A DNA stretch of 64,000 bases. It comes from a virus. Below, one piece after another: positions 2,929 to 7,601 of this stretch. The stretch covers positions 1 through 64,000 of the IMG/VR virus record IMGVR_UViG_3300005921_000006. One strand, given 5' to 3'. A program made the position numbers and the translations under genes. Position 1 is the stretch's first letter. Every line of letters begins with the position of its first letter. The notes beneath the pieces were generated by a model. The model was not told the DNA's origin and ran no database searches. It saw nothing but the letters and a program-made list of their open reading frames with translations.

Positions 2929-3921
2929 ATGGAGCTTACCGCCACTCAGTGTAGAACGCTGTTTACCGACTTTTGCCGAAAACAGGCAGCGCTAAATAAT
3001 ATCTCCCCCCATCTCATTATGGTGGGCGAAAGCTGCCGGCAATTAAGTCTTTCGGAAGAAGAAACCGTTTGGCGGGGCGGTTTGTATGCCGCTACTTACA
3101 ACTACCCCGCTGCCGAAGTGCTTTGGCAAAATTGGGCCGCCCCTAGTGTAGTGTTACGAAGTAAATCCCTTCAGTCTTGGCTTAAAGAGAATTGGTTGGG
3201 AGTACCGCTACGACGAGAACGGAAGTGTGTGCGGACTCCCGCAAAGTTGGCTCGTTGTTTACAAAGTTTTGCGGCTTGGATGCGGGGCGATGGACTAAAA
3301 CGATTGTATGGAAACGGCGTAGGCTACGACGATGCTTGGGAAATTTTTCAAGAAGTCTACGGAATGGGGCGCTATATCACTATACGATTTTTAGAGTTTC
3401 TTCACCGTTATGCCGACCTTCGCCCTGTTATGTACAACTCCATGCCCCGCGAAGGACAGCATTCCCGTAAAGGGTTGGCGTTGCTGTATCCAGAATACAA
3501 AACTGTACTGCTTGGCTCTAATAGCTGGGGGGATTGTAAGGAAAGCGACAAACTAGCTTGCCGGGAGCTGGCGCGGCTCCGGGAAGCGGGAGTGTACTAC
3601 TCCCATTATCAACTAGCGACGATGCTGTGTGAGTTTAAGCAAGCCTTACTAGGCGGGCATCTCTACCCCGGTAAGGCTATTGATAGTGAAATGAAGTACC
3701 AACGAAAGGTGTTGGACTATTGGGGGAAGCGGCGAAAAAGTCAGTTCATGCATGTCCGTACAGTTTTTCCAAAAGAGACGCGAGGAGAGGTACAAGGGTG
3801 GACGGAGGAACGTAAACCGCTTTTGACTGTACTGCGGGACTACGGTTACAATTGGAGTGACCAAGATTACGATTACGCTAAGACGCGGGATTTCTCCAAT
3901 CCAGTACGGAGGGTGGTGTGA
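2929..3921 (+). CDS. Amino acid:DNA transferase-like protein (putative thymine hypermodification)
   Basis: A 330-residue, largely helical protein with GAAAGG upstream of ATG. Its layout and motifs (VYGMGRYITIRFLEFLHR about 146-163; LCEFKQALLGGHLYPGKAID about 236-255) fit the phage amino acid:DNA transferase group, glycosylase-like helical proteins that displace pyrophosphate from activated 5-hydroxymethyluracil in DNA and attach an amino acid or amine. This is family recognition, not proof. The context is strong: DNA kinase, a second hypermodification protein and a dUMP hydroxymethylase follow. It overlaps the next gene by GTGA. Its first codons (MELTAT) repeat at the start of the gene at 6549. 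It could instead be a distant helical-domain partner of the kinase. Confidence 0.6.
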   Translation: MELTATQCRTLFTDFCRKQAALNNISPHLIMVGESCRQLSLSEEETVWRGGLYAATYNYPAAEVLWQNWAAPSVVLRSKSLQSWLKENWLGVPLRRERKCVRTPAKLARCLQSFAAWMRGDGLKRLYGNGVGYDDAWEIFQEVYGMGRYITIRFLEFLHRYADLRPVMYNSMPREGQHSRKGLALLYPEYKTVLLGSNSWGDCKESDKLACRELARLREAGVYYSHYQLATMLCEFKQALLGGHLYPGKAIDSEMKYQRKVLDYWGKRRKSQFMHVRTVFPKETRGEVQGWTEERKPLLTVLRDYGYNWSDQDYDYAKTRDFSNPVRRVV

Positions 3922-4337
3922 AAGTATTTACGGTACGACCCTTGTTACACTGGCGCAGCCATCTCGAAAAATTCTCTTTAGAGACGAAGCGCCAAGAATT
4001 TAAACACTACGGAGTTCAGTTAGTAATTAACATGACTCCGCGCCCCGACGCCGCCCAACCGGTAGACTACAAACAATACCCTATCGCCGACAGCTGTGCG
4101 GTAGATGTAAAGACTGTAGAGCAGGCTGTGAAGCAGGCTTTAAGTTACGTCCGCCGCCGCCGGGGAGTGTTGGTGCATTGTTACGGAGGGCGTAACCGCT
4201 CCGCTCTAGTGGTGGCAAGAGTGTTGATGGAGCTAGAAGGGTTAACTGGGGCAGCGGCGATAAAGGAAGTACGGCGATTACGGGCTAATGCTTTAGGAAA
4301 TGAGGCGTTCTGTAAATACTTGCGAGGGCTACGATGA
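3918..4337 (+). CDS. Dual-specificity phosphatase-like protein
   Basis: A 139-residue protein starting at GTG. It carries the cysteine-phosphatase signature HCYGGRNRSA (catalytic Cys88, Arg94 in C-x5-R), with an N-terminal half that reads like the compact alpha/beta fold of dual-specificity phosphatases, including an INMTP turn after a beta strand. It sits between the putative transferase and the DNA kinase with stop/start overlaps on both sides. Known members act on phosphoproteins, RNA 5' ends or nucleotides. A role in trimming phosphorylated bases or nucleotides here is speculation. Confidence 0.8.
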   Translation: MKVFTVRPLLHWRSHLEKFSLETKRQEFKHYGVQLVINMTPRPDAAQPVDYKQYPIADSCAVDVKTVEQAVKQALSYVRRRRGVLVHCYGGRNRSALVVARVLMELEGLTGAAAIKEVRRLRANALGNEAFCKYLRGLR

Positions 4338-4489
4338 AAGCGAAAAAACGCTACACAGTACAAATCATCATTCAAGAAAAGTGGATGTACTTCTTTGGTT
4401 CCGAATCGCTTCCCATGGCTCAAGCTATCGCGGGACGGCAGGAACACTACCGCATCCTAGACGGAACCAAAGTATTGGAGGAAAAATGA
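4334..4489 (+). CDS. Small protein, 51 aa, unknown
   Basis: ATG overlapping the end of the phosphatase gene; the stop overlaps the kinase start as ATGA. The product begins MKAKKRYTVQIIIQEKWMYF and has a basic N-terminus, a beta-rich middle and an acidic end. Tight coupling on both sides supports it as real. No family recognised. Confidence 0.6.
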   Translation: MKAKKRYTVQIIIQEKWMYFFGSESLPMAQAIAGRQEHYRILDGTKVLEEK

Positions 4490-5052
4490 AACCGTTAGTT
4501 TGTAATATTCGCGGAAACAGTGGGTCGGGAAAAACTTACACCACCCGAGCGTTTATGGAGCTGTGTAAGAACCGAACCGCGATAGAGCCGGACGGAAAGA
4601 TTCACGGTTACTCGATGACGCTCGGAAAGCAGCGCTGGGTCGTAATCGGTTCTTACAGCAATACGTGCGGCGGACTAGACACCGTCAAGACGCAACAGGA
4701 AATTATCGACCGAGTAGAAGAGTTCTCCGGCTTGGGATTCAATATTTGGATGGAGGGTTTAATTCTCTCCACCATCTACGGTTCCGTGGGGGCGTACTCG
4801 GAGAAGTTCGGGGACCGCTGGGTATTCGCCTATTTACAGCCGCCCATTGAGGAGTGTATCCGGCGGATTAAGGCACGGCGCAAAGCGGCGGGGAATGTGA
4901 AGCCGCTGAACGAGGATAACACCCGTGCCCGGTTCTCTACCATCGAGCGCAACAAGCAGATCGTTCTCTCCCACGGGCGGCGAGTAGTGGAATTGAACTG
5001 GCGCGACCCGTTGCCAGAGTTGTTGAGGGTAGTACGAAAGGAGGGAGCGTGA
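4486..5052 (+). CDS. P-loop 5-hydroxymethyl-dU DNA kinase-like protein
   Basis: A 188-residue protein. The start at 4486 follows GGAGGAAAA; an earlier in-frame start lies inside other genes. The Walker A motif GNSGSGKT is at residues 10-17. Further on is GSYSNTCGGLD, which I associate with phage 5-hmdU DNA kinases, and a lid-like segment (RRIKARRK). Known members pyrophosphorylate 5-hydroxymethyluracil in DNA to make it a leaving group for hypermodification. The adjacent transferase-like and hypermodification genes and the downstream dUMP hydroxymethylase support this over a generic nucleotide kinase. Confidence 0.8.
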   Translation: MKPLVCNIRGNSGSGKTYTTRAFMELCKNRTAIEPDGKIHGYSMTLGKQRWVVIGSYSNTCGGLDTVKTQQEIIDRVEEFSGLGFNIWMEGLILSTIYGSVGAYSEKFGDRWVFAYLQPPIEECIRRIKARRKAAGNVKPLNEDNTRARFSTIERNKQIVLSHGRRVVELNWRDPLPELLRVVRKEGA

Positions 5053-6495: not shown

Positions 6496-6501
6496 AAGAC
6501 C

Positions 6502-6519
6502 TAGAATAACGTTATTCTA
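6502..6519. promoter_or_regulatory. 18-bp perfect palindrome upstream of the hydroxymethylase gene
   Basis: TAGAATAACGTTATTCTA is its own reverse complement. It lies in the 53-base gap between the gene ending at 6495 and the start at 6549, one of the few gaps in this operon, and is flanked by an outer inverted pair CTAGAA...TTCTAG. A dimeric repressor or activator site is the simplest reading. A terminator is unlikely because the stem is AT-rich without a loop or T-run. Confidence 0.55.
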
Positions 6520-6548
6520 ACCTGTTCTAGCCCTTGAAAGGAGATCTT

Positions 6549-7601
6549 ATGGAGTTAACCGCCACGAACGTAAACCAGGCCGTAAACGAGGGTTTCCACT
6601 ACCTAGCCGTAGCCGGGGTGGAGGAGAACTCCCGGAACGGAAAAGTAATCGTCGCCCCCGAGCCGGTGCTTACTACCTACACCCACCCCACGGAGCGCGT
6701 GCTGTTTAGTCCGCTGCGGGACGCAAATCCCTTTTTTCATCTAATGGAAGCACTTTGGATGCTAGCGGGCCGGAACGATGTAGCTTGGCCTGCGTATTTC
6801 GCCAAGAACATTGCGCAGTATTCGGACGACGGTTCTGAATTTTGGGGTGCTTATGGAAAACGCTGGCGTAGCTGGTTTAACGGTCACGACCAGATTGTTG
6901 AAATAATCAACGACCTAAAAGAAAATCCTGAAAGCCGCCGTTGTGTAATTTCTATGTGGGATGGTTATGCGGATAGAAAGCAAGCACTGCTAGGTGGAAA
7001 AGACGTACCTTGCAACACCCACATCTACTTCGACCTGCGCGGCGGAGTACTGAACATGACGGTAATGCAGCGCAGTGGAGATGCGTTGTGGGGTGTGTAT
7101 GGGGCCAACGCTGTGCATATGAGCATTTTGCAGGAATACGTCGCGGCGGGCGTAGGTGCTCCGGTGGGGGTCTATCGGCAATTTTGTAACAATTTCCACG
7201 TGTACCCGGCGAACCTACCCAACGCGCCGCAGGCTTACGCTTCGGTTGCGCCGTTTAGCTGTATCCGCGCCTTAGCCATAGACGCCGACACTAGCGACGC
7301 CTACAAGACCGGCGAGGTAACGCCGTTCCCGCTGGTGAACACGGACATAGAGACGTGGGATGCGGACTTGAAACGATTCATGGAGCGTCCTTGTGACGGA
7401 CCTGGTGCCGGTTCTATCTACCGTTTTGAAGATCCATTCTTTAATTCTGTAGCTCAACCGATGTACTGCGGCTGGAAGCAACGTAAAGAGAAACGCGGGA
7501 CATGCATAGAGTGGGCGCGCTTAATCAGCGCCCCCGACTGGCGCAAAGCCTGCGTGGAGTGGATTGAACGCCGAGAGGCGAAGAAAGGAAGTGCAGAATG
7601 A
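6549..7601 (+). CDS. Thymidylate synthase-fold enzyme, probable dUMP hydroxymethylase
   Basis: A 350-residue protein starting at ATG after GAAAGGAGATCTT. Landmarks of the thymidylate synthase fold are visible: FHLMEALWMLAGR (63-75), GAYGKRWRSW (100-109), catalytic Cys155 in DVPCNTHIYF, phosphate-binding QRSGD (174-178), Asn187 in GANAVHM, and FHVY (216-219). Asn187 is at the position that is Asn in dUMP enzymes and Asp in dCMP hydroxymethylases, so dUMP is the likely substrate. Sequence alone cannot separate methylation from hydroxymethylation. The kinase and hypermodification genes just upstream favour hydroxymethylation, giving 5-hmdUMP for incorporation into phage DNA. Confidence 0.85.
   Translation: MELTATNVNQAVNEGFHYLAVAGVEENSRNGKVIVAPEPVLTTYTHPTERVLFSPLRDANPFFHLMEALWMLAGRNDVAWPAYFAKNIAQYSDDGSEFWGAYGKRWRSWFNGHDQIVEIINDLKENPESRRCVISMWDGYADRKQALLGGKDVPCNTHIYFDLRGGVLNMTVMQRSGDALWGVYGANAVHMSILQEYVAAGVGAPVGVYRQFCNNFHVYPANLPNAPQAYASVAPFSCIRALAIDADTSDAYKTGEVTPFPLVNTDIETWDADLKRFMERPCDGPGAGSIYRFEDPFFNSVAQPMYCGWKQRKEKRGTCIEWARLISAPDWRKACVEWIERREAKKGSAE

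Follow-up and report, generated by a model that had tools for sequence, protein, structure and literature searches.

The stretch analyzed here (the window) comprises the first 64 kb of the 73,221-bp IMG/VR record IMGVR_UViG_3300005921_000006, from a soil phage, and carries a plus-strand operon predicted to hypermodify thymine. Its genes encode, in order, a protein of the amino acid:DNA transferase family (ADDT), a dual-specificity phosphatase (DSP), a 51-residue open reading frame (ORF), a P-loop protein predicted to be a 5-hydroxymethyl-deoxyuridine (5-hmdU) DNA kinase, an HNH endonuclease, a helical-domain protein (HEL), an enzyme of the thymidylate synthase (TS) fold, a small ORF, a nucleoside 2-deoxyribosyltransferase-family protein and a DUF3310 protein (Table 1). 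Families were assigned by profile searches against Pfam and PHROGs. These searches confirmed the ADDT, P-loop, HEL and TS-fold proteins, all four of which a preliminary description of the window had located correctly; the ADDT and HEL profiles score above the Pfam cut-off and the kinase profile below it. The same description saw one overlapping operon. Neighboring genes do overlap, by 4–11 nt, except for a 53-nt gap between the HEL and TS-fold genes, and the earlier gene list was incomplete, lacking the DSP and HNH genes.

Table 1. Features of the hypermodification locus and of related genes elsewhere in the record.
Feature	Position	Strand	Evidence or context
ORF2141, lysine/alanine-rich protein	2141–2872	+	Just upstream of ADDT; HMM matches to homologues in related phages
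ADDT-d, amino acid:DNA transferase family, phosphatase-linked clade	2929–3921	+	PF18724, E 2.5e-9, above cut-off
DSP, dual-specificity (PTP-superfamily) phosphatase, C-x5-R motif HCYGGRNRS	3918–4337	+	PF00782, E 1.3e-12
51-aa ORF, role unassigned	4334–4489	+	Coding-like in gene call
P-loop protein, predicted 5-hmdU DNA kinase, GNSGSGKT and GSYSNTCGGLD	4486–5052	+	PF18748, E 1e-4 (below cut-off); PHROG_800, E 6e-19
HNH endonuclease with NUMOD3 motif	5049–5594	+	PF13392, E 7e-12; PF07460, E 3e-4
HEL, 5-hmdU DNA kinase helical domain protein	5584–6495	+	PF18723, E 1.2e-29, above cut-off; PHROG_2396, E 3e-43
TS-fold enzyme, predicted dUMP 5-hydroxymethylase	6549–7601	+	PF00303, E 7e-21; PHROG_5131, E 1e-111
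Small ORF	7598–7870	+	Position in operon
Nucleoside 2-deoxyribosyltransferase-family protein	7867–8238	+	PF05014, E 3e-8
DUF3310 protein, downstream neighbor of hydroxymethylase gene	8235–8648	+	PF11753, E 3e-5
dCTP deaminase-like enzyme	58150–58686	+	PF22769, E 1.3e-29
Radical SAM protein, outside the window	65146–66153 of the record (L002:2147–3154)		Near family-A DNA polymerase gene

The best solved relative of the TS-fold enzyme is the CMP 5-hydroxymethylase MilA (5b6d, E = 6e-21), followed by thymidylate synthases (E = 5e-16), and the asparagine at the uracil-recognizing position is retained. Because of both features, the enzyme is predicted to be a uracil (dUMP) hydroxymethylase, in line with the earlier assignment. 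For the P-loop protein, tblastn finds the corresponding gene in 90 phages, including M6 gp54 (E = 7e-10), which, together with its PHROG match, bears out the proposed 5-hmdU-kinase type. Proteins of this type are often annotated as "terminase small subunit", for example M6 gp54 (L003:6414–6977), Cr30 gp114 (L261:10045–10590) and L028:6998–7459 (L-numbers are labels of the related loci or virus stretches compared), and PHROG_800 itself carries this label.

The ADDT-d clade and its linkage to a phosphatase

A maximum-likelihood tree (branch supports given as pairs) places the window ADDT within one clade (99/98), here termed ADDT-d, apart from the M6-, PaMx11- and actinophage-type ADDTs; its separation from the M6/PaMx11 glycinyltransferase clade has 99–100% support. 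The DSP-linked ADDTs of this clade share a C-terminal extension (GExxGW...WSD), and the residue following the conserved cysteine is glutamate or aspartate (glutamate in the window), compared to lysine in M6-type ADDTs. A sequence search of the PDB with the window ADDT gave no significant match. The best PDB folds for its AlphaFold model (pLDDT 94.9) are 8z2n and 8z2m, structures of the 5-phosphomethyl-dU (5-PmdU) glycinyltransferase (Foldseek probability 1.00, TM 0.55–0.66); given this shared fold, the two enzymes probably have their base-side chemistry in common. The ADDT-d alignment retrieved no members when scanned against bacterial genomes, and the clade therefore looks viral. One ADDT (L067:5678–7537; ADDT E = 3e-21) carries a fused glutamine amidotransferase domain (PF13522, E = 1e-9), a fusion suggesting that ammonia is the nucleophile in that virus and that the product is aminomethylated.

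Scanning viral contigs with the window ADDT or P-loop protein as a single query detected no relatives, and alignments were required. The first linkage scan, which retrieved ADDT-DSP-kinase loci, was seeded with the DSP and was thus biased; the rescans were seeded with the ADDT alignment only, and then with myo-inositol-1-phosphate synthase (MIPS) only. Neighborhoods were called with profiles built within the analysis, and the counts refer to metagenome contigs after removal of duplicates at 90% protein identity. Of the 37 distinct loci that the ADDT seed retrieved, 36 carry a DSP, as do all but one of the 44 members of the ADDT-d clade. The linkage recurs with both of the other seeds, and its explanation as an artefact of the DSP-seeded search was rejected. 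With an ADDT-d gene, an adjacent C-x5-R DSP gene and an adjacent P-loop kinase gene, the window belongs to this phosphatase-linked group.

In most lineages, the DSP gene lies between the ADDT and kinase genes. ADDT and DSP are fused into a single protein in the L123/L125 lineage and in the L145/L146 lineage, with both domains recognized by Pfam. The cysteine and arginine of the C-x5-R motif are invariant (43/43), and the likely general-acid aspartate is kept in 33 of the 43 sequences. The window DSP is modeled with a DUSP fold (AlphaFold pLDDT 96.9) that matches DUSP structures with E ∼1e-10. The ADDT-DSP linkage is the same whether the predicted source of 5-hmdU is a TS-fold enzyme or a TET/JBP oxygenase (L105, L106 and others). 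From the near-obligatory linkage, the fusions and the active-site conservation, we infer that the DSP is part of the modification pathway. The DSP-like protein of Vibrio phage 29Fa.3 carries the annotation "thymidylate synthase".

MIPS genes in related viruses and in the window's record

A MIPS gene (PF01658, E ∼1e-36 in two examples) is located near the ADDT gene, defined as within 6 kb, in 18 of the 44 clade members, mostly directly upstream; the divergent ADDT of L055 also directly adjoins one. The scan seeded on phage MIPS yielded 56 distinct viral loci, 41 of them with an ADDT. A DSP is found in 34 of the 56 and a HAD-like phosphatase in 15, while seven have neither and none has both. The HAD-like protein is small and has no Pfam assignment, its identity resting on the motifs DxDGV, TGR, K and EDD. 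MIPS accompanied by either of two unrelated phosphatases is the pattern that would be expected if inositol phosphate, free or DNA-bound, needs to be dephosphorylated. We found no paper joining inositol with phage 5-hydroxymethyl bases in a search that did not include the main primary papers on thymidine hypermodification, where an earlier mention of MIPS or DSP is possible. In L107, L111, L114, L115 and L139, a radical S-adenosylmethionine (SAM) gene precedes ADDT-DSP, whether or not MIPS is present; that of L111 includes a SPASM domain (PF04055, PF13186).

The sole host indicator in the window is a cell-wall-type phage gene on the minus strand (8645–9316), which is closest to Acidobacteriaceae and makes Acidobacteria the probable hosts. 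MIPS is encoded in seven of eight such Acidobacteria genomes, compared to 6 of 14 control genomes, and host-made inositol phosphate could serve the window phage.

The preliminary description reported no radical SAM gene, which holds for the window; the full record has one beyond the window's end (Table 1). It lies between the two copies of a 101-nt direct repeat (96% identical, 65034–65134 and 66264–66364), as if the region had been inserted by duplication. Profiles of M6 gp52 and gp53 (together its pyridoxal phosphate (PLP)-dependent and radical SAM tailoring enzymes) have no match in the 73-kb record. By BLAST, the radical SAM protein is unlike that of M6 or those of the related loci, and it was rejected as a replacement for M6 gp53. 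Given this gene and the radical SAMs of related loci, an alternative substrate for the window phage is possible.

Proposed pathway and alternatives

In M6, ViI and phiW-14, 5-hmdU is incorporated into DNA and a 5-hmdU DNA kinase then acts on it (PMC6449724). For the window, we infer a related chemistry from the gene families and their linkage. The TS-fold enzyme would produce 5-hmdUMP, to be polymerized into DNA, and the P-loop kinase, with HEL recognizing the base, would convert the modified base to 5-PmdU. ADDT-d, by virtue of the fold shared with the 5-PmdU glycinyltransferase, would then swap this phosphate for a nucleophile, and the DSP would strip a phosphate from the nucleophile itself, before or after its attachment. 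Because of the MIPS linkage in relatives, this nucleophile is most likely myo-inositol (phosphate); many relatives would obtain it from a phage MIPS, and the window phage probably from its host. The modification would shield phage DNA from nucleases.

We assign a probability of roughly 60% to this interpretation, in which the operon hypermodifies thymine along a branch of the 5-hmdU pathway that depends on a phosphatase and has myo-inositol (phosphate) as its most likely nucleophile. The general route through 5-hmdU, kinase and transferase, already proposed in the preliminary description, is well supported by the confirmed families. The window phage probably does not make an amino-acid adduct; the foremost candidate for its product is an inositol adduct. 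The earlier suggestion of a product possibly unlike the known ones stands, for another reason: the presence of a phosphatase, rather than the absence of radical SAM and PLP genes. A wider proposal, which we rate slightly below an even chance, is that part of the thymine in ADDT-d clade phages is an inositol-bearing base, made by MIPS and ADDT and then dephosphorylated by the DSP or the non-homologous HAD-like enzyme.

Several observations weigh against the inositol assignment and its pathway. The PF18748 match of the kinase falls below the Pfam cut-off. MIPS is missing within 6 kb in 26 of the 44 clade members, and a search for MIPS elsewhere in 22 virus records of such loci gave one positive, already known to have MIPS nearby. 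The window's own record, which is possibly incomplete, contains no MIPS (PF01658), so that the case for inositol is taken over from relatives. The radical SAM genes beside ADDT in L107, L111, L114 and L115 make an alternative substituent possible. Finally, Stenotrophomonas phage Moby (L262) has MIPS and the HAD-like protein with no detectable ADDT, the pair being located beside QueC, tRNA-guanine transglycosylase and QueE-like (7-deazaguanine) genes. The MIPS/HAD-like pair is thus not exclusive to thymine, and its setting in Moby hints that 7-deazaguanine modification of DNA there has a step related to inositol.

The operon could instead follow the amino-acid chemistry of M6, ViI and phiW-14, to which the preliminary description had likened it. 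ADDT would then add an amino acid, and the DSP would reset unused 5-PmdU to 5-hmdU or trim a phosphorylated amino acid. The Pfam family and fold shared with the glycinyltransferase, as well as the lack of MIPS in the window, are compatible with such a scheme. However, the window ADDT lies outside the M6/PaMx11 clade and inside one linked to phosphatases and often to MIPS, it differs at the position following the cysteine, and the record has yielded neither a radical SAM nor a PLP enzyme of the M6 type. The association of MIPS with phosphatases would also be left unexplained. We consider this alternative rather unlikely, and the analogy to amino-acid chemistry is not upheld.

The DSP might also be a mere fellow traveler of the cassette, acting as a nucleotide or protein phosphatase in host takeover or dTTP removal. 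DSPs have many substrates, and phages without the cassette genes carry them as well (L028, L030). Such a role appears improbable for a gene that is placed between ADDT and kinase in most lineages and fused to ADDT in two, and for which an unrelated HAD-like phosphatase substitutes in other MIPS loci. It is scarcely credible that the TS-fold enzyme is, as its fold and retained asparagine would allow, an ordinary thymidylate synthase in a nucleotide-metabolism cluster without base hypermodification, since its closest solved relative is a hydroxymethylase, it is present in 82 of the 91 HEL loci compared, and the neighboring ADDT and HEL families are non-metabolic and turned up in none of the 14 control genomes.

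Modularity, neighboring genes and known systems

The HEL proteins have invariant residues in alignment A1, and the closest relatives of the window HEL in IMG/VR mostly occur without ADDT and kinase. Among the 91 HEL loci, 42 have a TAGT glycosyltransferase only, 23 a P-loop kinase only, 26 neither and none both (Fisher p = 4e-8, with relatedness ignored); ADDT occurs solely alongside the kinase. Pfam confirms the TAGT assignment for L016 and L017. Since the kinase is missing from most HEL loci, many of which carry TAGT in its place, HEL is probably a shared partner recognizing the base or DNA, and its assignment as a domain proper to the kinase was set aside.

The gene order ORF2141, TAGT, HEL, TS is found in L011, L023–L025, L033, L035 and L042, with DUF3310 downstream except in L011, where the stretch ends; DUF3310 follows HEL-TS in most related loci. 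By HMM search, L011, L023–L025, L033, L035, L036 and L114 have an ORF2141 homologue preceding their TAGT-HEL-TS or ADDT cassettes. No TAGT gene was matched by profile in the 73,221-bp record; the ADDT-DSP-ORF-kinase-HNH segment of the window occupies the TAGT slot of its relatives, and the GC content is ∼0.48–0.50 across most of the cassette, compared to 0.55–0.61 in the flanks. Both features are consistent with cassette exchange at this locus.

The HNH gene has a GC content of 0.467 (GC3 0.324) and separates kinase and HEL genes that are adjacent in M6; it is probably a mobile (homing) gene outside the pathway. Similar HNH genes occupy differing positions in other hypermodification loci (L094:8477–8971, L078:4386–4910, L088:7999–8433, L097:7806–8474), that of L094 also lying between the kinase and HEL genes.

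Among the remaining genes, the 51-aa ORF gave no homologue. The deoxyribosyltransferase-family protein may act on nucleotide pools, as a candidate dTMP or 5-hmdUMP hydrolase; such a gene also stands beside the hydroxymethylase in L036 (17767–18564) and L045 (10937–11698). The dCTP deaminase-like enzyme may provide the hydroxymethylase with dUMP. At the record's left end, positions 3–1103 hold two ORFs made up of short tandem repeats (VYGNAR, GNGVTL).

The loci are modular, with HEL and hydroxymethylase constant and glycosyltransferase or kinase-transferase cassettes interchanging. The proposed reading would also correct the misleading annotations "terminase small subunit" and "thymidylate synthase". 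To our knowledge, all characterized thymine hypermodifications based on 5-PmdU are amino-acid-derived. A phosphatase-dependent branch with an inositol substituent, if true, would represent a chemically new class of DNA base, would account for MIPS genes in many viruses that are otherwise easily taken as metabolic, and could provide enzymes for DNA labeling.

The closest parallel in layout is the gp51–gp58 cluster of Pseudomonas phage M6, which has ADDT, P-loop kinase, HEL, a hydroxymethylase-like protein and DUF3310 in the same order as the window. In contrast, M6 has radical SAM and PLP genes, no phosphatase between ADDT and kinase, no HNH gene between kinase and HEL, and an ADDT of another clade. 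The 5-PmdU glycinyltransferase of PaMx11 (gp46/PUGT; 8z2m, 8z2n) resembles the window ADDT in fold and differs from it in the C-terminal extension and in the residue after the cysteine. Cultured Caulobacter phage Cr30 encodes an ADDT (gp123, E = 1e-52), MIPS (gp121), the HAD-like protein (gp118) and the P-loop protein (gp114) close together; unlike the window, it has the HAD-like protein in place of the DSP, another ADDT type and no HEL in its record. TAGT glycosyltransferase systems have HEL and the hydroxymethylase in common with the window, which lacks TAGT, while TET/JBP systems have ADDT in common with it, alongside TET.

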